Positions 1 to 11,640 of a stretch of 11,640 nucleotides of DNA are shown here, one piece after another. Source of the DNA: an uncultured Porphyromonadaceae bacterium (GTDB lineage Bacteria > Bacteroidota > Bacteroidia > Bacteroidales > Muribaculaceae); contig CAMHDX010000005.1 of assembly GCA_946183895.1 (NCBI GenBank), positions 1 through 11,640 on the forward strand, in the 5' to 3' direction. How positions within the stretch are numbered: the first letter of the stretch is position 1; every line of letters begins with the position of its first letter. The notes under the pieces were generated by a model, which was not told the origin of the DNA, ran no database searches, and saw only the letters and a program-made list of their open reading frames with translations. The translations under genes were made by a program, and so were the position numbers.

Positions 1-811
1 ATCCTCCAATTTTTATAAATACTTTACCAGTAACTACATCAAGCTCAATTTTGTCAAAATATTGCTTTCCGTTGACAATCACGGGAATGTCTGCGGAACT
101 TTGAGCGTTGAAATTTATGCGACCGTCGCCCAATGGATGTGGGGTTTTTGTTGGGTCACTTTTAAGTGTAACATAGCAAAAATGAGAAGAAGCAGTAAAT
201 TGTTGTAAAGCTTCAAAATGGTTGTTGGTGGTGCTAGTAAAATTAATCTTTATTGAATCGATGTCATTCTCTACGTCTTTGAAAAAGATCGGTTCTTGAT
301 TGCTTACACTATGTTGTTTTTGGCAATCATTATAGAAATCCAAAAATTGCAATTCAATTGTTTTACTCCTTTTGGACAACTCGCAAAATTCAATAGAAAT
401 TTGTTTCTTATTACCTGCGATTTTGGCAATTTTGCGTAGTTCAATTGGAGCGAGCAAACGATAGTAAATTTTCGTTTCTTCTGTTTCGGCGTTAATGTAG
501 ACGACAAAGAATGCTACTCCACCATTAGCCTGATAAATTTTAATGTCATTAACTTCAATCGGATACTTAATTTTGCGATTAGAGAAATCTTTGAATTGTC
601 GTCCTTTAACTTGAACGGGAATAAAACCTATTAAGCCAGTTTTACTTTGCTTATCAGAGCCGCTTTTATAGAGAAACAACTTGCCATCCCAAACGGGTTC
701 CTTATCGTTTTTAGGAATGTTTGGGGCAAGTGTTTCACTGAAGTTGAAATAGCCACTAACTGCATCAACACTTGCGTTTTCTATTTGAGTACTATTAAGT
801 CGCCTTAGCAT
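1..811 (-). CDS. Partial gene: DUF4365-like protein, possible PD-(D/E)XK nuclease (N-terminal 270 residues)
   Basis: An uninterrupted reading frame starts at the ATG at 811-809 and is still open at the left edge, giving 270 residues with no stop. It begins MLRRLNSTQIENASVDAV. The segment WDGKLFLYKSG (residues 41-51) followed by VQVKGRQF (66-73) resembles the D...(E/Q)xK core of PD-(D/E)XK nucleases of the DUF4365/Mrr type. Candidate active residues are E11, D42, Q67 and K69. The region GGVAFFVVYIN (97-107) fits the next core strand. The start codon overlaps the stop of the upstream DUF4391 gene in the string ATGCTAA, which implies translational coupling and one operon with the helicase. The gene is visibly richer in A+T than its two partners; the first 60 bases contain only 16 G or C. 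Seen directly: frame, overlap and motif. Inferred: nuclease function. The rest of the protein is outside the window, so other domains are unknown. Confidence 0.75.
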   Translation of the reverse strand, partial: MLRRLNSTQIENASVDAVSGYFNFSETLAPNIPKNDKEPVWDGKLFLYKSGSDKQSKTGLIGFIPVQVKGRQFKDFSNRKIKYPIEVNDIKIYQANGGVAFFVVYINAETEETKIYYRLLAPIELRKIAKIAGNKKQISIEFCELSKRSKTIELQFLDFYNDCQKQHSVSNQEPIFFKDVENDIDSIKINFTSTTNNHFEALQQFTASSHFCYVTLKSDPTKTPHPLGDGRINFNAQSSADIPVIVNGKQYFDKIELDVVTGKVFIKIGG

Positions 812-1404
812 AAATCTGATTTAAGTTTAAGTATTTGCTGATGTAGTTCGAACTTGCGTCGTGGTTGTTTCTCTTTGCGCATTTTTGATTCGAGGGCGGC
901 AATCAGCTTGCGCAGTTTCTCTTGCTGCTCGTCGAGCGTGATTTGCTCGGTGAGCGTGTTGCCGTCCTTGATGTCGATGTCGCCAATGGTGGTGACCATT
1001 GACTGCCAAACATCATCAAGCGACAAGCCATTGAGCGGTAAACTCGCTTCTGCGGCAGGTTGCCACGGAGAGAAGAATAGCCGCTCGTGGAAAATGGCGA
1101 ATTGCACCTGCTCGTTGTGCAGAAGTGCGATGACCATTTTCTGCGGAATGAGTTTGGTCAGAAGTTCAATATTGCGGTGGTCAAAGTCACGGCGTTTGAG
1201 CAGGACCGTGACCACATAGATGCCTCGAATGTCAACCGTGGCCAGCGCAGGGACTGAGCGCGTGGTGATTTCGTGTGAAATCACCAGTCGGCTGATGTCC
1301 TCATCGAAGTGGTCGCGCTGCGCCGCCTTTAAGCCAAACATTGCAAAGATGGCTTTCTTCAGCAACGCCTTGTTGACCTCTGTATTTGCTGGCAGGTTGA
1401 ACAT
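805..1404 (-). CDS. DUF4391 domain-containing protein
   Basis: This 199-residue protein matches my memory of the DUF4391 pattern at both ends. The N terminus MFNLPANTEVNK fits the family's FNLP..T..NK opening. The C-terminal part (about 158-199), EQQEKLRKLIAALESK followed by a basic stretch and FELHQQILKLKSDL, fits its predicted coiled coil. The middle (about 50-140) has the alternating hydrophobic strands expected of the core. No signal peptide or membrane segment is seen, so it is probably cytoplasmic. No biochemical function is established for DUF4391. From memory, it typically sits next to SNF2-type helicases in restriction-like loci. Here its ATG lies 4 bases after the helicase stop, and its own stop overlaps the start of the next gene. 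It is therefore probably a fixed partner of the helicase, with the coiled coil a possible contact surface; that role is inference. Confidence 0.85.
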   Translation of the reverse strand: MFNLPANTEVNKALLKKAIFAMFGLKAAQRDHFDEDISRLVISHEITTRSVPALATVDIRGIYVVTVLLKRRDFDHRNIELLTKLIPQKMVIALLHNEQVQFAIFHERLFFSPWQPAAEASLPLNGLSLDDVWQSMVTTIGDIDIKDGNTLTEQITLDEQQEKLRKLIAALESKMRKEKQPRRKFELHQQILKLKSDLC

Positions 1405-1408
1405 CGGT

Positions 1409-1978
1409 TTACTTGATAACTAAAAAACAAATCAGCTCGAAATCGTCAAGCCCGGTGATGGGGTCGGCAAACAGCGAGCCTTGCACACCGCGCAGGAAAC
1501 TGTCGATGTCGCTTTCCTGCTTGACGTTGATAATAGAATTGATGGCTTCGCCCAACAATTCAGAGTAACGCTTCATGTTGCGTCCGTCGCGCGTTTGCTT
1601 GTTGAAATCACGGCACAGCTCCTTGTCGGGAGTGTGCACGCCTTTGCACAACAAGCGCAAGCGGTCGAGCAGGTCTTTGGGCGCAAGGTGGTTGACCACC
1701 ACTTCGCCCTCGTCGCTGATATAGACCATGTAGAACGGGTGCAACTGGTTCTTGTGGTCGATGTTCACGCCGTTGTTGCGGTTTTTCAGCACGAAGACCA
1801 CGCCTGGAGGCGTTGCCTCGCGAGCCGCCACCACGGCGTGCAGTCCAAACGGCGTGTGCTCAATGTCGTGGCCCTGGTTGATGTATTCCAGCAGGTCAAG
1901 GCGGAACTCGTTCAAGCCCAAGTCCATGATGGAAACACCGCTGTTCATCTCCTCGATGTCAACCACTTCTTCCTGCAA
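1409..1978 (-). CDS. Displaced C-terminal part of the SNF2 helicase (-1 frame)
   Basis: This frame continues the helicase beyond the frame break. Reading back from here, the -1 frame gives DDLDYRRQQLQRLQEEVVDIEEM, the natural continuation of SENE in the upstream piece. The open stretch extends up to the break near 2013-2024. The nominal start at 1978 is a TTG codon that would be an ordinary leucine in the intact protein, so I do not think it is a genuine start. The segment (LGLNEFRLDLLEYI, then HTPFGLHAVV, GVVFVLKNR and HPFYMVYISDEGEVV) looks like the conserved region that follows the helicase core in this family, with a mixed alpha/beta pattern. It ends 4 bases before the DUF4391 start. Unless translation shifts frame or restarts internally, this domain is not made as part of the helicase. 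Confidence 0.75.
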   Translation of the reverse strand: MQEEVVDIEEMNSGVSIMDLGLNEFRLDLLEYINQGHDIEHTPFGLHAVVAAREATPPGVVFVLKNRNNGVNIDHKNQLHPFYMVYISDEGEVVVNHLAPKDLLDRLRLLCKGVHTPDKELCRDFNKQTRDGRNMKRYSELLGEAINSIINVKQESDIDSFLRGVQGSLFADPITGLDDFELICFLVIK

Positions 1979-4659
1979 GCGTTGCAGCTGCTGGCGGCGA
2001 TAGTCGAGGTCGTCCTTTCGTTTTCGGAAAGTGGGTTGCCGTCGCCTGTGGCGGTGAGCACACTGGCTTTCATGCGTGCCTCGACGCGCTCTTTCAGATT
2101 GATGTACTCGTCAAGCGTCATGTCCGGCCAGTAGTTGACCAACTGAATGACGGCGTTTCGCGAGCCGATGCGGTCGATACGCCCGAAGCGTTGAATAATG
2201 CGCACGGGGTTCCAGTGAATATCGTAGTTGATGAGGTAGTCGCAGTCCTGCAAGTTCTGTCCCTCGCTGATGCAGTCGGTGCCGATGAGCACGTCAATCT
2301 CTGCATCGAGTTTCGGGTAGATTGCGGCTTTCTCTTTCGATACCGGCGAGAACAGCGTGAGAACCTTGTTAAAATCAAGTTTCTCACGCAGTTTGAGCGT
2401 ACTGCGAGCCTCCACGTCACCGCTCACAAGGGCGGTGTGCAAGCCATGCTTTTCTAGGATTGCGGGAGCGAGGTTCTTGTAAAGGTACTCGGCGGTGTCG
2501 CTGAATGCCGTGAAGATTATCACTTTCTTGTTGCCCTCATTGATGGGGTTAGCAAACTTGTCGCGCAGGTCGGCAATTAGTTGCTGGAGTTTGCTGTCGT
2601 GTTCGGGCGTGATGTCGGCAAGCATGAGTAGCAGCAATTTGAGATTGTCAGCGTCTTTCTGCAAGAAAGTGCGCCACGACATATAATCGAGGTCGGCGAG
2701 CAAGATTTTATTCTTGCGTCGCCCGATGATTATATCATTGTCGGCATCCTCAATGTCCCAATCGGCGGCAGGCTCGGCAGCCATCATGCAATCGTCAACC
2801 TGCGTCTGCTCAACATGGCTGTCAATGCGTTTAAGCATTTCCTCAATGTACGCCGCGATGCGCTGCACAGTGAGGCGGAACGAGTTGACCGAACTCTCCA
2901 AGCGTTTGAGCATTTGTATGCTCATCAGGCGGCGAATACCTTTCTCGCGGTCTTCGATACTTAGGCGGTGGCCAGTGGCGGTTATCTCGTCCTCGGTGTC
3001 GATGCCGTACTTGTCTTTGCGGCTGTCGAGAATAAATGCCGACGGCGTGTAAACAGCGAGATTGAGCTGCTGCAGCTGCTCAAAAATCTCGTTGTAATTG
3101 ATGGCTGTGTTCAGGTCAGTAAGTGGCGGACGGCGTGATATTGGCTTCAACCTTGTGGGGAACTTGCCAATGTCGGCGGTGTCGTAATACTGCTCGATGT
3201 GCTTTCGGCTTCGGGCAATCGTCACGCTGTCGAGCAGGGTGAAGAAGTCAAAGCTCAACATCGAGAGCAGCTGCTTGGTGGTGCGCTCCTCTTTAGGCAA
3301 GCGTGACCACTCGTTGTAGCTGCGCTGCGCCTTGCGGAAAATGTCGTCAACACTCGATTCAGTGTTGAGCAGAGCGTCAAGGCGTGCACTCTCACCTTCG
3401 TAGGCGAGTTGCAGCTGGTTTTTGAGGTCGTTGAAGCGGTTGTTAACCGGCGTTGCACTGAGCATGAGAACTTTCGTGCGCACGCCTGCACGGATGATTT
3501 TATTCATCAGTCGCAGGTAGCGGTTCTCACGTGGGTTCTCGTCGTTCTCATCGGTGCTGACTTTGCCGCCGTTGCGGAAGTTGTGGCTCTCGTCAATGAC
3601 CACCAGGTCATAGTTCCCCCAGTTGATGTTGGCTAGCTCGCGTCCGTTGCTGCGCCCCTCGTCGCGTGACAGGTCGCTGTGGAAAAACACGTCGTATCGC
3701 AAGCGGTCGGCGACAAGCGGATTATTGAGATAGTTGCCGTGATAGGTTTCCCAGTTGTCGTGCAACTTCTTGGGGCAAAGCACAAGCACGTTGCGGTTGC
3801 GCCCCTCGTAGTATTTAATGACGGCAAGGGCTGTGAACGTCTTGCCGAGGCCCACGCTGTCGGCAAGAATGCAGCCGTTATATTTCTCCAGTTTATTGAT
3901 AATGGCAAGCGCCGCGTCTCGCTGGAAGTTATACAGCTTGCCCCAAATCACGCTCTGCTTGAAGCCTGTCGCCTCGTTGGGCAGCACGCCTTCGCTGATG
4001 TCTTCAAGAAACTCGTTGAAGATATTGTAGAGCGTGACAAAGTAGAGAAATTCGGGAGCGTTTTCCTTATAGACATTGCTGATGTTGTCAATGACTTCTT
4101 CGGTGACTACTTGCAGCATTTCGCTGTCGTTCCAAACTTGTTCAAACAGCGTCAGGAAATCTTGTGAGGCCGGGAAGTCATTGCGCATGATCATCGTGTA
4201 GGCGTTGTCGCCCTGCTCGGTGCCGAGGTCAACGGTAGTGAAGCCGTTGACCGGCGCATAATTGGTCTGGTCAACGTTTATAAATCCCTGCATGAACTTG
4301 TTCGTGCGGTTGGATTTGAAGCAGACCTTTTGCCGAATCCACTCGGCGCACTCACGGGCGATGGCGCGTTGCGTGAGTTCGTTGCGCAGTTTGATTTCAA
4401 ACTCCGAGCCGAATACCGTGCGTTCACGGTTGAGGCGCGGAATGTAGAACTCACGCTTCTGCTTATCCACCTTGTCGGTGGTAAAAGTCGGTGATGTGAA
4501 GATGAAACGTAGCTCGTCAATGCTTTTCAGACGTTCTTTCAGCTCTTGGAAAGCATAGATGGAGAAACAAGACGCAGCAATGGCAATCTTGCTGCCGTCC
4601 TGAATGACGGTGAGCAAGTCGTCGCGCAGTGTCATGGTCTTGTTGTCAATAAGTTTCAT
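1945..4659 (-). CDS. SNF2-family DNA helicase/translocase with PLD-like N-terminal domain, frameshifted
   Basis: I place the start at the ATG at 4659 (MKLIDNKTMTLRDDLLTVIQ), which fits my memory of the family's usual MK.IDN opening. The frame stays open up to a GTG at 4899, but that lies upstream of the putative promoter. From this start: residues 1-150 resemble the PLD-like domain found ahead of such helicases (KIAIAASCFSIYAF), but no HxK catalytic motif is visible. Motif I DSVGLGKT is at 267-274, motif II DESH at 356-359, motif III SATP at 401-404, motif IV VIIFTAFSD at about 713-721, motif V IGTDCISEGQNL at 792-803, and motif VI QRFGRIDRIGS at 823-833. It should be an ATP-driven duplex DNA translocase. 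After SENER (about residue 882) a one-base loss switches frame, adding about 23 unrelated residues before a stop. The corrected protein would be about 1,083 residues (1409-4659). It leads an operon with DUF4391 and a possible nuclease, suggesting DNA restriction or defence (inference). Confidence 0.85.
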   Translation of the reverse strand: MKLIDNKTMTLRDDLLTVIQDGSKIAIAASCFSIYAFQELKERLKSIDELRFIFTSPTFTTDKVDKQKREFYIPRLNRERTVFGSEFEIKLRNELTQRAIARECAEWIRQKVCFKSNRTNKFMQGFINVDQTNYAPVNGFTTVDLGTEQGDNAYTMIMRNDFPASQDFLTLFEQVWNDSEMLQVVTEEVIDNISNVYKENAPEFLYFVTLYNIFNEFLEDISEGVLPNEATGFKQSVIWGKLYNFQRDAALAIINKLEKYNGCILADSVGLGKTFTALAVIKYYEGRNRNVLVLCPKKLHDNWETYHGNYLNNPLVADRLRYDVFFHSDLSRDEGRSNGRELANINWGNYDLVVIDESHNFRNGGKVSTDENDENPRENRYLRLMNKIIRAGVRTKVLMLSATPVNNRFNDLKNQLQLAYEGESARLDALLNTESSVDDIFRKAQRSYNEWSRLPKEERTTKQLLSMLSFDFFTLLDSVTIARSRKHIEQYYDTADIGKFPTRLKPISRRPPLTDLNTAINYNEIFEQLQQLNLAVYTPSAFILDSRKDKYGIDTEDEITATGHRLSIEDREKGIRRLMSIQMLKRLESSVNSFRLTVQRIAAYIEEMLKRIDSHVEQTQVDDCMMAAEPAADWDIEDADNDIIIGRRKNKILLADLDYMSWRTFLQKDADNLKLLLLMLADITPEHDSKLQQLIADLRDKFANPINEGNKKVIIFTAFSDTAEYLYKNLAPAILEKHGLHTALVSGDVEARSTLKLREKLDFNKVLTLFSPVSKEKAAIYPKLDAEIDVLIGTDCISEGQNLQDCDYLINYDIHWNPVRIIQRFGRIDRIGSRNAVIQLVNYWPDMTLDEYINLKERVEARMKASVLTATGDGNPLSENERTTSTIAASSCNACRKKWLTSRR
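2013..2024 (-). other. One-base frame break in the helicase gene
   Basis: On the coding strand the region reads TCC GAA AAC GAA AGG ACG ACC in the upstream frame. Inserting one A to give GAA AAG GAC GAC restores SENEKDDLDYRRQQLQ and joins the two reading frames. The most likely lesion is loss of one A from a run of four, leaving AAA at 2016-2018; a second run of four A lies beside it at 2021-2024. No classical X XXY YYZ slippery heptamer is in the correct phase, so programmed -1 frameshifting is not well supported. A true mutation, slippage-based switching or an assembly error all remain possible. Confidence 0.75.
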
Positions 4660-4758
4660 CAGCGTATTTATCAAAACAAACTCCAGTGCAGTGCCAGAAA
4701 GCCGACCAAAGCTTGTATCACTACAAAGGAGTTCGTAAGTCGTTAAGTTATATGTTGT

Positions 4759-4771
4759 CTGCGTAACGCAG
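4759..4771. repeat. 13-base palindrome in the helicase leader
   Basis: The sequence CTGCGT-A-ACGCAG has two perfect 6-base arms around one central base. It lies about 100 bases before the helicase ATG and downstream of the putative promoter. It could be a small regulator binding site; with a single-base centre it is a poor RNA hairpin. The function is unknown. Confidence 0.4.
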
Positions 4772-4790
4772 TTAGGTCTTCTACTGGAAG

Positions 4791-4809
4791 AGAATAAGAT
4801 TCTTATTCT
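4791..4809. promoter_or_regulatory. 19-base palindrome at the helicase transcription start, candidate operator
   Basis: AGAATAAGA-T-TCTTATTCT has perfect 9-base arms around one central base. It begins 8 bases past the putative -7 element at 4818-4825, so it would cover roughly the first 20 transcribed bases. That is a usual place for a repressor operator. No regulator gene is visible in the window, so the binding protein is unknown. The symmetry is seen directly; the operator role is inferred. Confidence 0.5.
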
Positions 4810-4817
4810 AGGGACGA

Positions 4818-4844
4818 CAAAGTTACAAAATTTATTGCAATCAA
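4818..4844 (-). promoter_or_regulatory. Putative Bacteroidota promoter for the helicase operon
   Basis: On the minus strand TAACTTTG at 4825-4818 matches the Bacteroidota -7 consensus TAnnTTTG. A TTG at 4844-4842, 16 bases upstream, is a candidate -33 element, though the spacing is a little short. Transcription would start near 4812 and leave a leader of about 150 bases before the ATG at 4659. This position supports the 4659 start over the in-frame GTG at 4899. Confidence 0.5.
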
Positions 4845-4901
4845 GGCATAGATTGCGATAAAGTTTTACCAAAAAAGTTCTGCAATGCCGTAAAATCACT
4901 C

Positions 4902-4939
4902 ACGTCACAAAAGTGGTAAAAATGTCACTTTTGTGACGT
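4902..4939 (-). terminator. Large inverted repeat, probable terminator of the kinase-to-beta-helix operon
   Basis: Perfect 14-base arms ACGTCACAAAAGTG (4902-4915) and CACTTTTGTGACGT (4926-4939) flank a 10-base loop. It lies about 90 bases past the stop of the beta-helix gene and upstream of the helicase promoter, where a terminator is expected. The downstream T tract on the minus strand is weak (GAGTGATTTT). The right side also contains its own palindrome, GTCAC-TTTT-GTGAC (4924-4937). A protein-binding role is therefore an alternative. Confidence 0.5.
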
Positions 4940-5026
4940 AAAAGCCAGTCGGGCGACGGCTCGGCGCTCAAAAATCGAGACTGCCCTCATTGAGCAGGAA
5001 GTCCATGATGCCGATGGTGAGAATTG

Positions 5027-6742
5027 TCAGCGCGGGGTGGTGATGATGGTGTTGGCGCGTTGGTCTACGGTGGGGGCGAGCTTGCTGTCGGCTATCTTGC
5101 GGCAATTGAAGGTGTTGCCATTGAGCGACGAGACGGTGTTCTTGGCGCCGGTGAACAAGGTCGTGGCGCGCGCGTTGAGCGCGCACCGGTTGAGCCGCAG
5201 GTCCTTGACGGTGTTGAAGCAGGCGTTGATGGTGCCGGGGCCATTCACGGTGAGGTCCGATGCGCTGAAGCGCATATCCACGCCGGCCACGTGCGGGAAA
5301 CATAGCTGGTTAAGCTTGGTGCCCTGCGAGAGGTTAATGGTGACGTTGTTGAGGTCGAAGTGCGGACTGGAAGCGCTCTTGCCGAATACTGAGAAGACCT
5401 CGGTCATCGACCACTTGGACTTGCTCTTGGGGTGAAGGTTGATGTCGAAGTTGAAGGTGACGCTGCTGAACACAGCGCGCGAGGTGCGACATCGTATGCC
5501 GCCAAATGCTCGGTCTTTCTTCACGTCAAACGTGCAGTCACTCATGCGGAACACATCGCCCGGCGCCCCCTCGGCGATGCTGAGCGTGAACTGCGAGCCG
5601 TCAAGCATGAAGTAGTCGTCGTTGATCTCAAAGTAGCAACGGTTGATGGCATTGTCGTGGAGCATTGAGCGGAATTGGGTGCCTGTCTCCTGCTTGGGAC
5701 CGGTTGCGCAGCGCGTGAAGCGGCTGTCGCTCACGGTGACGTGGTTGCTGCACGTCGAGATGTCAATGGGCTGGAAACAGTAGTCCGATGTGATGTTAGT
5801 GGCGGTGCACCGGCTCGCATGGAACCCCAGCGGCTGATAGGCGATGTGGCTCATCGTGCAGCTGTCAATCGTGACATTGGTGGTGATGCGTTTGTCGCTG
5901 CGGGTGCCAATCATGATGCCTCCCTGCCGCATCTCGAAGTGGCAGTGGCGGATGTCAATGTTGCTGCTCGTCTTGCCGTCGGTGTCAACATACGCCCAGA
6001 TGCCGTCATCGGCAACGCCGATGTTGGCGAGGCCGTCGCCTTTCATCTTGAAGGAGTTAGCAGTGGTGTATCGGACGCCGTTAAATGTCACGGGCTCTTT
6101 ATCGTAAATGGGTGGGAAGTCGTGTGGCTCGTGGTAGCCCACCCAGCTGATGCCGTTGACCGACACATCATTGCAGTTGACTAGTCGCAGCCCCATAATC
6201 ATGGTGCCTCCTTGCAGGCTCAGCCCCCTGGCGTCGTAGATGTGAACGAACCGTGTGCCCTGATTGTTGTAGAAGCTGCCGTTGAACGTGACGCTGACGC
6301 CCCGGCTATTGGTGAGGAACTGGGCGAGCTGCAGCCAGGCGCGTGAGTTGTCGGTGCCGCCGCGGATGCCTGCGCGTAGCGTGCGGCTCTTGATGACGAT
6401 GTCGCGAGTTGTGGTGGTCATGTCGCCCACAAGGCCGAAGTTGGTCGCCACAACAGCGGAGTTGACTATCGTGGTGTTGAACGTGCAGTTCTCGAAGGCG
6501 ACTTCGGCTCCATGTGGCTTGACCGTGATGTTGTCGCCGTTGATGGTGACGCCCACCAGCTTGCAACTCGGCTCAAAGGTCACAATGGTGCCCGCTTCGA
6601 GATTGAGGGTCCCGCCATACATGGTTTGGGACACGTTGAACAAGTGGGCGGCGGCACGGGCGCCGGAGGTCATGGGCGCGGCAAATGCGAGCATCAAGAG
6701 GGTCGTTGCCAAGATATGCGAGCTGAACCGATTCATAGTCAT
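5027..6742 (-). CDS. Secreted right-handed parallel beta-helix protein
   Basis: This 571-residue protein begins with a typical Sec signal peptide: basic MTMNRFSSH, a hydrophobic core ILATTLLMLAFAAP, and likely signal peptidase I cleavage after ARA at about residue 30. No lipobox cysteine is seen. The rest is a long series of short strand-rich repeats with N/T/S/G turns (VTINGDNITVKPHG, FENCTFNTT, VTIDSCTMSHIAYQPLGF, VTVDSRFTR-like segments), typical of pectin-lyase-fold beta-helices in polysaccharide-active or adhesive proteins. I see no catalytic set that assigns it to a particular lyase or glycosidase family. Its substrate, and whether it is an enzyme at all, are unknown. It should act in the periplasm or at the surface. 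It starts 12 bases after the antiporter stop, so it is last in the operon. The start could instead be the ATG two codons later (MNRFSSH). Confidence 0.8.
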   Translation of the reverse strand: MTMNRFSSHILATTLLMLAFAAPMTSGARAAAHLFNVSQTMYGGTLNLEAGTIVTFEPSCKLVGVTINGDNITVKPHGAEVAFENCTFNTTIVNSAVVATNFGLVGDMTTTTRDIVIKSRTLRAGIRGGTDNSRAWLQLAQFLTNSRGVSVTFNGSFYNNQGTRFVHIYDARGLSLQGGTMIMGLRLVNCNDVSVNGISWVGYHEPHDFPPIYDKEPVTFNGVRYTTANSFKMKGDGLANIGVADDGIWAYVDTDGKTSSNIDIRHCHFEMRQGGIMIGTRSDKRITTNVTIDSCTMSHIAYQPLGFHASRCTATNITSDYCFQPIDISTCSNHVTVSDSRFTRCATGPKQETGTQFRSMLHDNAINRCYFEINDDYFMLDGSQFTLSIAEGAPGDVFRMSDCTFDVKKDRAFGGIRCRTSRAVFSSVTFNFDINLHPKSKSKWSMTEVFSVFGKSASSPHFDLNNVTINLSQGTKLNQLCFPHVAGVDMRFSASDLTVNGPGTINACFNTVKDLRLNRCALNARATTLFTGAKNTVSSLNGNTFNCRKIADSKLAPTVDQRANTIITTPR

Positions 6743-6754
6743 GAGTTCGTTTGA

Positions 6755-8071
6755 TTAGTCGGGCTTGGTCTCGCTCAGTTGCGCATTGCGGAATGCGATG
6801 GTTATCAGCACCATGATTAAGAGGGCGAGAGGATAGTATAGGTGCGGCAAGAAGGCGATGGGCGCCACACCCGCCAGGCCTGCCGCCAGCAGGGTTTGCG
6901 CGCCGTAGGGCAGCACCGACTGGGTGATGCACGAGCAGGTGTCAAGCAGACTTGCCGTGCGGCGCGGGTCGATGTTGAACCGCGATGCGATGGAGCGCGC
7001 GACACGTCCAACGGTGAGGATGGCGATTGTGTTGTTGGCGGTGCAGATGTTCACTAACGCCACCAGACCGGCTATCGCGCCTTGAGCGCCGCGGGGGCTG
7101 CTCGTGCGGCGCGTGAGCAGTTGGATTATGAACGTGATGCCTCCGTTGTAGCTTATCACTTCGAGCAGACCGCTTGCCAACAGCGTGACTATAATCAGGT
7201 CGCTCATGTTCTTGATGCCGTCGCCCAGGGTGGTGCACATCTCGATGAGGGGCATGCCGCTTGAGCTCAAGCCGAGCACGATGCACATGACAATGCCCAG
7301 CAGCAACACCAGCAGCACGTTCATGCCGAAGGCGGCAGTCACGATTACGAGCAGGTAGGGTAGTACCAGCCACCCAGACGCGGAGGACTGCAGGGCGGCA
7401 ACCGGCTCCGCTGTCATGTGATAGCCGATTACGCCGTAGACGACCAGGCACACTATCGCTGCCGGCAACGCTATGCGCAGGTTGGCGCGGAACTTGTCCG
7501 ACATGCCCACATGCTGCGTGCGCGTGGCGGCAACGGTGGTGTCGCTGATGAAGGACAGGTTGTCGCCAAAGAACGAGCCTCCCAGCACCACAGCGACCAT
7601 GGCGGCAACGTCACTGCCCGTTGCCACCGCCAGTTGAGTGGCAAACGGGGTGAGAGCGACAATGGTGCCGACGCTTGTCCCGATTGACATCGAGATGAAG
7701 CATGCCGTGATGAACAGCCCGGCAGGCAATGCCCATGGCGGGAGCAGGGCAGTGGTGAACTGGACTGTGGCGTTGATTGAGCCGATGCCGCTTGCCAGAG
7801 CCGAAAAAGCGCCGGAGAGGATGAAAATCCATATCATGTACAGGATGCCGGGATTGGCGGCTCCGTTCGAAAAAATCTCGATGCGCTCACTGACGGGCAT
7901 GCGCCTCATGGTCAACAATGCCCACACGCTCGCGGCGATAAAGGCGATAGACAACGGCATGCGGTAGAAGTCGCCCACCGCCAGCGACACGCCAACGTAC
8001 ATCGCCAGGAAAACGACCATTGGCGACAATGCCAGCAAGCCGCGTTGCCATGTCACATGATTAGTCTCCAT
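6755..8071 (-). CDS. nhaC: NhaC-family Na+/H+ antiporter
   Basis: This is a 438-residue, very hydrophobic inner-membrane protein with roughly 10-12 predicted membrane spans, the usual size for the family. The NhaC signature is clear: GGSFFGDNLSFISDTTVAAT (164-183), with the charged/polar residues D170, S173 and D177 in a membrane region. A second conserved block SLLDTCSCITQSVLPYGAQT (374-393) corresponds to the family's C-terminal pore region. NhaC proteins exchange cytoplasmic Na+ for external protons, giving sodium and pH tolerance; some relatives exchange organic acids, so the exact substrate is inferred. Its ATG lies inside the 3' end of rarA (11-base overlap), so translation is probably coupled. 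There is no obvious functional link to rarA. Confidence 0.88.
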   Translation of the reverse strand: METNHVTWQRGLLALSPMVVFLAMYVGVSLAVGDFYRMPLSIAFIAASVWALLTMRRMPVSERIEIFSNGAANPGILYMIWIFILSGAFSALASGIGSINATVQFTTALLPPWALPAGLFITACFISMSIGTSVGTIVALTPFATQLAVATGSDVAAMVAVVLGGSFFGDNLSFISDTTVAATRTQHVGMSDKFRANLRIALPAAIVCLVVYGVIGYHMTAEPVAALQSSASGWLVLPYLLVIVTAAFGMNVLLVLLLGIVMCIVLGLSSSGMPLIEMCTTLGDGIKNMSDLIIVTLLASGLLEVISYNGGITFIIQLLTRRTSSPRGAQGAIAGLVALVNICTANNTIAILTVGRVARSIASRFNIDPRRTASLLDTCSCITQSVLPYGAQTLLAAGLAGVAPIAFLPHLYYPLALLIMVLITIAFRNAQLSETKPD

Positions 8072-9341
8072 CGCGTTGCCATAGTACTTTCATCCGGTCG
8101 GCCAAGCGCGCCTCGGCGGGGGTGTCTTGCGGTTCCCACAGGCGCGGGTGATGCAGCTCGTCGGGCATGTACTGCTGCTTGACAAAGTGCCCCGGATAGT
8201 CGTGTGGATAATGGTAGTCGGCGCCGTAGCCGAGTTCGCTCATCAGCGCCGTGGGGGCATTGCGCAGGTGCAGCGGCACAGGCGCGTTGCCGGTTTGCTT
8301 GACCAGTGCCAGCGCCTTGTCAATGGCGAGGTAGGCGCTGTTGCTCTTGGGCGACGTGGCAAGGTAGATGGCGCACTCGCTCAGGGGGATGCGCCCCTCG
8401 GGCCAGCCTATCTTATTGATGATGTCAAAGGTGGCATTGGCGAGCAGCAATGCGTTGGGATTGGCCAGGCCGATGTCCTCGGCGGCGCTGATGCACAAGC
8501 GGCGCGCGATGAACTTGGGGTCCTCGCCACCGGCAATCATGCGCGCCAACCAGTAGACCGCCGCGTCGGGGTCGCTGCCGCGAACACTCTTGATAAACGC
8601 CGAGATGATGTCATAATGCATCTCGCCGCCTTTGTCAAAGGCGACCGGATTCTCCTGCAACCTGCTCGTGACAATATCGTTGTTAATCACCATCGGCTCG
8701 GTGGGACCCAGAGACTGATAGATCAAATCGAGAATGTTGAGCAGCTTGCGGGCATCACCGGCGGCAAACCGCAGCAAGGCATCGGTCTGCTCAATGCGCA
8801 CCTCGCGGTCCTTGAAGATGCTGTCGGTCTTGATGGCGCGGTCGAGCAGCACCAGCAAGTCGCTGTCCTCAAGCGGCTTGAGCACATACACCTGCGCTCG
8901 GCTGAGTAGCGGGCGGATTACCTCGAACGACGGATTCTCGGTCGTCGCGCCTATCAGGGTGACAGTGCCGTTTTCCACCGCGCCCAGCAGCGAATCCTGC
9001 TGCGACTTGTTGAAGCGGTGAATTTCGTCGATAAACAGGATGGGGCGCCCGTGGGTGAACATGCTGGAGGCATCGGCGCGACAGCGGTCCAGCACCTCAC
9101 GCACCTCCTTCACGCCGCTTGTCACCGCGCTCAGTGTGTAAAACGGGACTTGGGTTTGCTCGGCGACGATGCGCGCCAGCGTGGTCTTGCCCACACCGGG
9201 CGGGCCCCACATGATAAACGAGGACACATTGCCACTCTCAATCATGCGGCGCAACACAGCGCCTTCACCCACCAGGTGTCGCTGACCGATGTAGTCGTCA
9301 AGGCTGTGGGGTCTGAGGCGCTCGGCAAGTGGTTCGTACAT
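8061..9341 (-). CDS. rarA: Replication-associated recombination protein A (RarA/MgsA), AAA+ ATPase
   Basis: The full-length 426-residue protein opens with MYEPLAERLRPHSLDDYIGQRHLVG, the family hallmark. Walker A GPPGVGKT is at 46-53, Walker B LFIDEIHRF at 102-110, sensor 1 GATTENPSFEV at 131-141, and the arginine-finger SRA at 147-149. The C-terminal half has the conserved MgsA tetramerisation region, including EDIGLANP, LSECAIYLATSPKSNSAY and APTALMSELGYGADYHYPHD. RarA acts in the cytoplasm at stalled replication forks, on single-stranded DNA gaps and DNA ends; it forms tetramers and is related to clamp-loader subunits. The gene follows the YbjN-like gene by 6 bases and overlaps the antiporter by 11, so it lies in the middle of an operon. 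No defects are seen. Confidence 0.96.
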   Translation of the reverse strand: MYEPLAERLRPHSLDDYIGQRHLVGEGAVLRRMIESGNVSSFIMWGPPGVGKTTLARIVAEQTQVPFYTLSAVTSGVKEVREVLDRCRADASSMFTHGRPILFIDEIHRFNKSQQDSLLGAVENGTVTLIGATTENPSFEVIRPLLSRAQVYVLKPLEDSDLLVLLDRAIKTDSIFKDREVRIEQTDALLRFAAGDARKLLNILDLIYQSLGPTEPMVINNDIVTSRLQENPVAFDKGGEMHYDIISAFIKSVRGSDPDAAVYWLARMIAGGEDPKFIARRLCISAAEDIGLANPNALLLANATFDIINKIGWPEGRIPLSECAIYLATSPKSNSAYLAIDKALALVKQTGNAPVPLHLRNAPTALMSELGYGADYHYPHDYPGHFVKQQYMPDELHHPRLWEPQDTPAEARLADRMKVLWQRDGD

Positions 9342-9347
9342 ATGGGT

Positions 9348-9737
9348 TTACAGTTGTTCGTCAAGTGAATGGTAGAATGCCTTGCGGGCACGATGCAGCA
9401 GGCCCAGCGCGCGCGGCATGATGTCCTCCACGACCGGGGTGCTGTCAGCCAGAATCTCAAACGCCACGTTGACAGTACCCTCGTCAACGTAGGCCTTCAC
9501 GACCTTGAAGGCGCTGTTGACGGTATTCATCGCGTTGTATACGACAAGCCGCTCGCGGCTCTCGCGCGGAAAGTCATGAATGTAGGGTATCACGAGGCGG
9601 AAGTATTGCTCGTCGTTATCGTCGTTGACAAACAGATAGTCAAGGTCGTTGTACTTGAACGTAACGCCAAACTCCACCTCGCGATAGGCGATGCCGCGCT
9701 CGGCGAGAAAATCTATGACAAGTTGATTGAGTGACAT
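9348..9737 (-). CDS. YbjN-like small protein (secretion-chaperone-like fold)
   Basis: This 129-residue soluble protein has no signal peptide. Its pattern is an N-terminal helix (LNQLVIDFLAERGI, 3-16), alternating strands (REVEFGVTFKYNDLDYLFVN; QYFRLVIPYI), the stretch YNAMNTVNSAFKVVKAYVDE (67-86), another strand (TVNVAFEILA), and a C-terminal helix (DIMPRALGLLHRARKAFYHSL). This fits YbjN-domain proteins, which share the type III secretion chaperone fold. The central N..N......K motif and terminal helix are the best match. The molecular function of these proteins is poorly known; a protein-binding role is plausible. It lies 41 bases after the kinase-AAA+ gene and 6 bases before rarA. A partnership with the upstream kinase-AAA+ protein is an inference from position only. 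Confidence 0.65.
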   Translation of the reverse strand: MSLNQLVIDFLAERGIAYREVEFGVTFKYNDLDYLFVNDDNDEQYFRLVIPYIHDFPRESRERLVVYNAMNTVNSAFKVVKAYVDEGTVNVAFEILADSTPVVEDIMPRALGLLHRARKAFYHSLDEQL

Positions 9738-9778
9738 ACTCTTGAATTTTGTGTGATTAGCGTGAATTATGGCGCAGC

Positions 9779-11581
9779 TTACTTGAAGCCGATGCGCGGA
9801 ATGGAGTTGCGGTGGTCCACATCTTCCATCTTGGCGCGCAACTCCTCGTACTCCTTGAGCAACTCGCTACGCACCGAGGGTCCGGTGGCGGCAATGGTCT
9901 TCTCCATCAACTCCTGCGTGATCTCCTCATCGTTGAAGGCGGCAATCATGGCGGCCTCGTTGACCACATAGGCGATGTCGCTTGCCACATATCCGTCGGC
10001 CAGCGTTGCCAGCTTGGCGCAATCAATCTCCTTGCAGGGACGGCCCTTGAGGTAGAGCTCAAACATCTCCTTGCGCGCCTCATCATCGGGCATGGGCACA
10101 TACACCATCTTGTCGATGCGACCGGTGCGCAGCACTGCGGGGTCAATCTTGTCAGGGCGGTTGCTGGTCGCGATAACAAAAATGCCACGCTTTGAGCAGT
10201 TGTTCAGTTGCGAGAGGAACTCGTTGACCTCGCCTCCTTGATGCTCACCACCCCAGCCGGTGCGGTTGGGCACAAAGGCATCAAACTCGTCAAAGCACAA
10301 CACCGTGGGAGCATTCTTCTCGGCCTTCTTGAACAGGTCGGCAATCTTGCCCTGCGTGCCGTGAACGTAGATTGAGCCCAAGTCGCTCGCCTTGACCAGA
10401 ATGAAGTTGAAGCCGGTCTCCTCGGCAAACTTCTCGGCAAAGAAACTCTTGCCGCATCCCGGAGGACCGTACAGCAACATGCCGTTGGGGGGCGTGATGC
10501 GATACTTCTGGCTACGCTCGGTGTCTTTCAGCACAAAGATCACGCGCTGGGTGAGCATGTCCTTGAGTTCCTGCATGCCGGCGATGTCGGCAAATCCGTT
10601 GCCGCCACCGCGCTTGATGGTCACGCCTGCCTCGGTGTCACTGGCGCTCTCACGGTCGCTGCGATTGACGGGGTCATCGTCCTTGGTGCGAGTGCGTGAA
10701 CCGGCGCCACGACCGGCGGGTGCTTGCGGCGCCTCCTCGCCGCCCAGGTCGCCGAGCACCTGAGTCACACGATCATAGCGGTCTGCGCCGGTTGCCGTCA
10801 AACCGCGCTCCAGCACATGCCTGAGCTCGGGCGTCAAGCCCTCAATGTCAAGGTCTAACGCTGTGCCGCGCGCCTTCTTGACTGCCTTGATCTTGTCCTG
10901 GCGTGTCGCATTGATGTCATACTGCGGCTCCCAGGGCGCCTTGCCCGCCAACATCGCGTACAGCACCGCGATGGCGCTGAAGATGTCGGAGCGATCGTTG
11001 TACAGGCCGCCAAAGGTCGAGTTGGCGCAATAACGCGGGTCCAGGTCGCTCGTGTCAAATGCGGGACTGCCGGCGGCACCGCGACCCAAGTGACCCATGT
11101 CAATCAGCTCGGGGATGCCTCCGGTCTTTTGGCTCAGCATGATGTTGCGGGGCGTAATGTCATTGTGCAACAAGCCTTTCTCGTGCAGATAGCGGAGGCC
11201 GGAGAGTATTCCCTTGAATATCTCGGTTGCCTCGGCAGGTGCGATGCGACCCTCGCGCTGAATCTTCTCCACCAGCAGTTCGCCGCTAAAGTAGATCGTA
11301 ATCATGTATTGGCATGCCCCCTCGGCGGCGATAAATCGTCCCGAAGCGACATAGCTGATGATGTTAGGGTGCTTCAACTCGGCGCACTTGACAATCTCGC
11401 TCACCTCGCCATTGTCATTGAGAAGGCGGTCAGGAGTGTTCTTGATGATATATAACTTAAGGAAATAGGGTGTGCCGTTCTCATCGGCGAGGCGATAAGT
11501 CTCACAGTAATCGTTCGCGTTGATCAAAAACACCACTTTATATTTGTTCTCAATCGATTGGCCGTCTTTCAGTATGCTCAT
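9779..11581 (-). CDS. Ser/Thr protein kinase-like domain fused to a CDC48/FtsH-type AAA+ ATPase
   Basis: The protein has 600 residues. Residues 1-275 form a Hanks-type kinase fold: likely ATP-binding K42 (FLKLY), catalytic loop HNDITPRN (139-146; HND in place of HRD), a DFG equivalent DMG (161-163), and the SDIFSAIAVLYAMLAGKAPW segment (198-217). The usual glycine-rich loop is absent; the region reads FLINANDYCETYRL. Residues 282-325 are a charged, low-complexity linker. Residues 329-570 form a classic AAA+ module: DIAGM..LK, Walker A GPPGCGKS (372-379), putative pore-loop IYVHG (404-408), Walker B VLCFDEFD (427-434), sensor 1 N474, and arginine fingers R485 and R488 in LRTGRID. It is probably a cytoplasmic ATP-driven remodeller with a kinase or kinase-like sensing domain. 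No protease or membrane segment is present. It is the first gene of the operon. Confidence 0.88.
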   Translation of the reverse strand: MSILKDGQSIENKYKVVFLINANDYCETYRLADENGTPYFLKLYIIKNTPDRLLNDNGEVSEIVKCAELKHPNIISYVASGRFIAAEGACQYMITIYFSGELLVEKIQREGRIAPAEATEIFKGILSGLRYLHEKGLLHNDITPRNIMLSQKTGGIPELIDMGHLGRGAAGSPAFDTSDLDPRYCANSTFGGLYNDRSDIFSAIAVLYAMLAGKAPWEPQYDINATRQDKIKAVKKARGTALDLDIEGLTPELRHVLERGLTATGADRYDRVTQVLGDLGGEEAPQAPAGRGAGSRTRTKDDDPVNRSDRESASDTEAGVTIKRGGGNGFADIAGMQELKDMLTQRVIFVLKDTERSQKYRITPPNGMLLYGPPGCGKSFFAEKFAEETGFNFILVKASDLGSIYVHGTQGKIADLFKKAEKNAPTVLCFDEFDAFVPNRTGWGGEHQGGEVNEFLSQLNNCSKRGIFVIATSNRPDKIDPAVLRTGRIDKMVYVPMPDDEARKEMFELYLKGRPCKEIDCAKLATLADGYVASDIAYVVNEAAMIAAFNDEEITQELMEKTIAATGPSVRSELLKEYEELRAKMEDVDHRNSIPRIGFK

Positions 11582-11628
11582 ATCTTATTACTTTAGATGG
11601 TTTTTTGTCTCAATTCTAAATTATAGTG

Positions 11629-11636
11629 CAAAATTA
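11629..11636 (-). promoter_or_regulatory. Putative Bacteroidota -7 promoter element for the kinase-AAA+ operon
   Basis: On the minus strand TAATTTTG at 11636-11629 matches TAnnTTTG. It would start transcription near 11622, about 40 bases before the ATG at 11581. The -33 element would lie just beyond the right edge, so it cannot be checked here. The leader is A+T-rich and shows no Shine-Dalgarno sequence, as is usual in this phylum. Confidence 0.45.
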
Positions 11637-11640
11637 CGAT

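Follow-up and report, generated by a model that had tools for sequence, protein, structure and literature searches.

The first 11,640 nucleotides of contig CAMHDX010000005.1 (C5, positions 1–11640; hereafter the window), from assembly GCA_946183895.1 of an uncultured Porphyromonadaceae bacterium, begin with three tightly coupled genes encoding a SNF2 helicase, a DUF4391 protein and a putative nuclease. We read these genes, with a probability of roughly 0.85, as the promoter-proximal portion of a type III restriction-modification (R-M) locus that is cut by the contig end and carries the nuclease as cargo; the assignment to type III is very likely and is the firmest part of this reading. The locus is ordinary as a system and of modest interest as a cargo-swapping platform. 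The source assembly (339 contigs, 71% complete) is probably a metagenome bin. Position 1 of the window is the first base of the contig, and the invisibility of a methyltransferase at this edge is therefore uninformative about what comes next.

Gene order and its recurrence in relatives

The three genes are all read leftward on the minus strand, in the order helicase, DUF4391 and third open reading frame (ORF), and the tight coupling described in the original prediction, a 4-base gap followed by an ATGCTAA overlap, is present (Table 1). A SNF2 helicase of the PADLOC PDLC01075 type stands directly before DUF4391, as in HKD-SNF2/DUF4391-led type III loci. The DUF4391 product scored 104.2 bits against PF14335 (cut-off, 29.9), and its structure was predicted with a mean confidence score (pLDDT) of 95.5; comparison of this model with the PDB yielded no convincing match.

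This order recurs in tens of loci, far more than chance would produce. A helicase scan of genome contigs returned at least 586 relatives, the best 80 of which were used for locus counts; their ORFs were labelled by similarity to the proteins of two relatives, L011 and L012, and the rows are related rather than independent (L020 and L144 are apparently one record). The methyltransferase gene Mod and the restriction gene Res lay downstream of the helicase in 66 and 64 of the 80 loci, respectively, and in 60 of the loci with Mod downstream, DUF4391 separated it from the helicase. Mod and Res were upstream of the helicase in L059, bringing the Mod total to 67, and the remaining 13 loci stop 2 to 2,384 bases past the helicase. 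Scanning the phylum with PF14335 matched 27 of 395 genomes, including the window's own, with 24 over the cut-off. Near-complete matches outside the window numbered 20; the helicase lay within 1.5 kb of DUF4391 in 18 of these, and 16 had Mod within that distance; two more showed Mod on extension (L137 and L138), and in the last two the contig ends before Mod. In L103 and L104, two of these loci, Mod is present but the helicase is not, and three others (L108, L109 and L111) have an ORF of 125–129 amino acids between helicase and DUF4391. The other matches comprised nine fragmentary or weak loci (L119–L127), with Mod or helicase visible in four and neither in five, and five matches without a locus. 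A gene-order search added five other genomes, four with helicase and Mod and one (L145) ending early with a helicase fragment.

The L011 Mod and Res proteins match the EcoP15I subunits in the PDB and the PADLOC type III models, and in Pfam they match N6_N4_Mtase (Mod) and ResIII and RE_endonuc (Res). Unlike the phage P1 record, which contains Mod and Res alone, the relatives carry the helicase and DUF4391 before Mod, together with three cargo slots. The same gene order was found on Enterobacter, Raoultella and Acetobacter plasmids (three of the 16 matching plasmid records were inspected), with Res interrupted by an IS1380-like element on the Acetobacter plasmid. It was also found in Erysipelothrix phage phi1605 (L151 2954–11861), whose DUF4391 is annotated as a chemotaxis protein, and a Verrucomicrobiota relative has the same genes with Mod and Res standing first. 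The helicase-DUF4391 stretch occurs in 54 of 5,426 complete Escherichia coli genomes, and all three loci that were opened contain Mod and Res. A regulator annotated as WYL or helix-turn-helix lies directly before the helicase in all five enterobacterial loci inspected (L092, L093, L098, L099 and L100).

In a tree of 28 Mod sequences, the 24 helicase-linked rows fell on one side of a branch with support of 96/97, together with one helicase-less phage Mod, and the other side held the Mod of phage P1 along with two further Mods encoded in the L011 and L012 genomes. Of 76 helicase-linked Mods the tree samples 24, set against no more than four rows without a helicase (L148 fell short of the length needed), and a helicase-linked Mod clade is tentative because of long branches, midpoint rooting and the few outgroup rows. 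Our literature searches found no description of the helicase-DUF4391-Mod-Res core, and on the strength of those searches only, this four-gene core is a new element.

Cargo slots

Cargo was defined as ORFs of at least 90 amino acids from a simple ORF picker. The slot between helicase and DUF4391 (slot A) was occupied in 9 of 60 loci, that between DUF4391 and Mod (slot B) in 32 of 60, and a third, bounded by Mod and Res, in 33 of 64. Including six loci without DUF4391, the slots held 99 ORFs in 67 clusters, 94 of them co-directional with the core, and 16 of the 31 same-strand cargos in slot B start with an overlap of exactly 4 bases with DUF4391. Pfam matches among the 94 same-strand ORFs included RhuM (6), Abi_C (5), SLFN_AlbA_2 (5), YhcG PDDEXK (4), DUF4365 (4), TIR_2 (4), Fic (3) and Zeta_toxin (3). 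Of the DUF4365 matches, three are sub-threshold members of the window-type nuclease family, and the fourth is another ORF (best E-value 5e-30). These 94 ORFs matched 266 PADLOC families compared with 64 for 95 control ORFs drawn from 200 upstream ORFs, a count of families matched by any member rather than of proteins, in which redundant PDC-S05 candidate-family models inflate the cargo figure. The cargo slots of a common restriction locus offer a ready list of candidate defence genes.

Cargo GC content was below that of the core in 86 of 91 ORFs (8 ORFs from loci without DUF4391 being excluded) and in all 40 from slot B; in the window it was 0.532 for the helicase, 0.507 for DUF4391 and 0.356 for the nuclease piece. 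Relative to the helicase, GC was lower for DUF4391 in 43 of 66 loci and for Res in 22 of 65. Cargo exchange looks recent, as near-identical cores have differing slot contents in the window, L011 and L012. At the DNA level, the window is 93–94% identical to these two relatives in the helicase and 89–90% in DUF4391, and the alignment fades within the last codons of DUF4391. In slot A, which is empty in the window, L011 and L012 carry SLFN_AlbA_2 genes that are 95% identical to each other; slot B holds the nuclease in the window, a TIR gene in L011 and a 92-amino-acid ORF in L012. The three opened E. coli loci likewise differ, containing a 900-amino-acid ATP-binding protein, an ATP-dependent nuclease with DUF2130, or a small ORF only. 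The first of these cargos was complete in 8 of the 5,426 genomes and the second in 2. A further 44 E. coli genomes matched the 900-amino-acid cargo only in part; among the seven such matches listed, 19% of it was kept as two stretches, one from either end, a pattern suggestive of an internal deletion.

Extra defence-like genes between restriction subunit genes have a parallel in enteropathogenic E. coli, where DarTG2 is reported to sit inside a type I R-M locus (PMC12255303). The window-type locus differs from that arrangement in being type III, in having three slots and in carrying cargo that varies among near-identical cores.

Two other slot B arrangements were seen. L137 (7968–10087) and L138 (7688–9816) have a same-sized, opposite-strand insert of three ORFs (219, 123 and 294 amino acids) between DUF4391 and Mod, and those of L137, the copy examined, include DUF6884-like and GIY-YIG-like ORFs. 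A Bacteroidales genome carries five consecutive cargo ORFs in this slot (L032 13914–18053).

The cargo nuclease

The 270 residues encoded before the contig end are predicted to belong to a PD-(D/E)XK nuclease whose C-terminal region is helical and possibly tetratricopeptide repeat-like. The D...QVKG pattern from which a restriction-like nuclease had been proposed held up in two alignments of the family that include the window row, A1 (13 rows) and A2 (63 rows): its D...QVK part is invariant or nearly so, and the acidic and (Q/E)xK positions of the nuclease (the D, D and Q.K columns) are invariant. The model of a relative, L058 (pLDDT 90.6), has a PD-(D/E)XK fold that agrees with those of SPARDA and Hjc, which supports the fold foreseen for the window protein. 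Relatives L058, L038, L072 and P0001 scored 18.5–22.3 bits against DUF4365, and a precomputed PF14280 label was present on 7 of the 120 listed relatives.

Compared with the SPARDA nuclease subunit (DUF4365/DREN-APAZ), the rest of the cargo protein is partly helical and has another architecture; a PDB sequence search returned no match for the nuclease. No Argonaute is named among the annotated neighbours, and no search aimed at Argonaute or APAZ was made. Neither the window piece nor L058 matched PADLOC, and in all five slot cases of the family Mod is the next gene; what is new here is a family of nucleases, unmatched in PADLOC, that occupies a recurrent slot. One stand-alone relative, on a Priestia plasmid (L097 4735–12647), adjoins two DndB genes and a pair formed by an AAA ATPase and a UvrD helicase.

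Proposed function and the status of the cargo

Past the left edge the nuclease gene is expected to run to its end and to be followed by Mod and, after it, Res. In systems of the EcoP15I type, methylation by Mod affects a single strand of an asymmetric site, and the corresponding Res cuts DNA after ATP-driven communication between unmodified sites; the Mod and Res of this locus would methylate and restrict in the same manner. The SNF2 ATPase, with its degenerate PLD-like domain, and DUF4391 may form an accessory module that senses or processes foreign DNA, and the third protein would be an exchangeable effector, probably held inactive. Phage DNA that escapes or inhibits restriction might set off this nuclease, which would then cleave DNA broadly, either as a backup or in an abortive response, a mechanism that we put forward tentatively as somewhat less than an even prospect. 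More doubtful still is the wider proposal that helicase-DUF4391-Mod-Res is a distinct, unnamed type III subtype of Bacteroidota, Bacillota, Pseudomonadota and at least one phage, serving as a docking platform whose exchangeable effectors, this nuclease among them, would sit in three slots under control of the core and fire when restriction fails. If the core does control its cargo, the locus would concretely exemplify how a second-line effector is licensed by a restriction system.

Several observations weigh against the reading of the window as a truncated type III locus with nuclease cargo. For the methyltransferase question (METHYLTRANSFERASE), Mod and Res queries against the window's own assembly both came back empty; Mod and Res are thus unseen in this genome, though the contig stops inside the third gene and the assembly is incomplete. 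The fold model is that of L058, which is 27% identical to the window piece, and the DUF4365 score of the window piece itself (20.1 bits) lies under the Pfam cut-off of 24.3; L074 and P0003 gave no DUF4365 match in the Pfam search. Low GC is not confined to cargo, since in 57 of 67 loci Mod, too, has a lower GC than the helicase. Stand-alone relatives of the nuclease exist (L095–L097, L140 and L141), and no result here demonstrates an interaction between cargo and core.

These stand-alone relatives, together with the diversity and low GC of the cargo, fit an alternative in which a permissive site has taken up the nuclease as an unrelated passenger, with no functional link to the restriction locus. 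We consider this rather unlikely, as the predominant co-direction of the cargo ORFs with the core, the exact 4-base overlaps with DUF4391 and the excess of PADLOC families over the upstream controls all argue against it.

The helicase and its frame break

Pfam SNF2 and helicase C-terminal domains exceed their cut-offs in the window helicase, and PDLC01075 ('HKD+Snf2', 948 positions) is its best model, matched in order by the first piece to position 774 and by the second from 792 to 946. Thus the SNF2 part of the first gene's original description stands. The PLD-like N terminus does not: the Pfam search gave no match there, and residues 1–230 contain no histidine. The catalytic motif of PLD/HKD enzymes is HxK(x)4D, and without a histidine the HxK part cannot be present. 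Across 76 aligned helicases, histidine reaches 90% conservation in no column of this region, and the H.K of relative L072 falls in a variable column, as a chance occurrence. An active phospholipase D/HKD nuclease in this N terminus is ruled out by the missing histidine, and the name 'HKD' would fit at most a degenerate fold. The SNF2 core is shared with the helicases DrmD of DISARM, BrxHI/BrxHII, DpdE and HmaA, but the first frame of the window scored far under all of the listed NCBIfam cut-offs (DrmD, 149.5 versus 610 bits).

The helicase is split over two frames (Table 1), whereas L011 and L012 have uninterrupted ORFs of 1,083 and 1,080 amino acids. The protein match to L011 is 98% identical over residues 1–882 and ends at residue 882, which places the break at about 2000–2020 of the window. 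Biology and assembly error are indistinguishable as its cause from these data, and because the frame is broken, the window copy may be inactive or misassembled. A decaying locus, in which the rest has been lost or rearranged to leave a non-functional relic, would account for the break. Decay is seen elsewhere: Mod is interrupted by an IS30 element in one of the opened E. coli loci (strain 0H26, L099 18400–19551) and by two opposite-strand ORFs in L139 (11780–13925), and a slot B gene is reduced to its ends in E. coli, as described above. Such a relic is nevertheless improbable here, given the identity to L011, a helicase otherwise unbroken, a DUF4391 gene and nuclease piece that are both open, and the fact that errors in assembly can produce a lone slip.

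The contig edge and the missing methyltransferase

The Mod query found Mod in all four other genomes tried, one of them its own source, which indicates that the search works. A methyltransferase-free system of helicase, DUF4391 and nuclease alone, the last replacing Mod and Res, would agree with the empty searches of the window assembly and with two relatives that lack Mod as far as they extend, L017 (an opposite-strand ORF after the helicase and 2,384 bases to the contig end) and L073 (1,940 bases), but it is very improbable given Mod in 67 of the 80 loci, the absence of any locus with more than 2.4 kb downstream of the helicase that lacks an adjoining Mod, and Mod after the nuclease in every slot case of its family. 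On this comparative evidence the locus is far likelier to continue into Mod and Res, and the methyltransferase is most likely missing from the window only through the end of the assembled DNA. The DNA-targeting defence cassette originally proposed is therefore retained in its nuclease and its defence context and abandoned as a methyltransferase-free variant; a false lead is removed and the fragment explained.

Table 1. Features of the truncated locus in the window.
Feature	Position	Strand	Basis
Helicase gene (HKD/PLD-like + SNF2)	1409..4659	-	Frames 4659..1945 and 1978..1409; Pfam SNF2-rel_dom, Helicase_C; PADLOC PDLC01075
Helicase/DUF4391 gap, 4 bases; slot A position	1405..1408	-	Sequence; comparison with L011/L012
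DUF4391 gene, 199 amino acids	805..1404	-	PF14335
ATGCTAA overlap of DUF4391 stop and third-gene start; cargo boundary	805..811	-	Sequence; L011/L012 alignment; GC
DUF4365-like PD-(D/E)XK nuclease gene (predicted), 5' part; slot B	2..811	-	270 of ~600 codons; runs off contig end

Neighbouring genes

The remainder of the window, also on the minus strand, contains ordinary-looking chromosome genes at 5027–9737, including an MgsA/RarA-type AAA ATPase, a Na+/H+ antiporter, a protein with a weak YbjN-like chaperone match and one of 571 amino acids without a Pfam match. At 9779–11581 lies a gene for a 600-amino-acid protein with an N-terminal Pkinase domain (83.7 bits) and a C-terminal AAA ATPase domain (116.8 bits), a fusion of protein kinase and AAA ATPase that is, to our knowledge, an unusual pairing.

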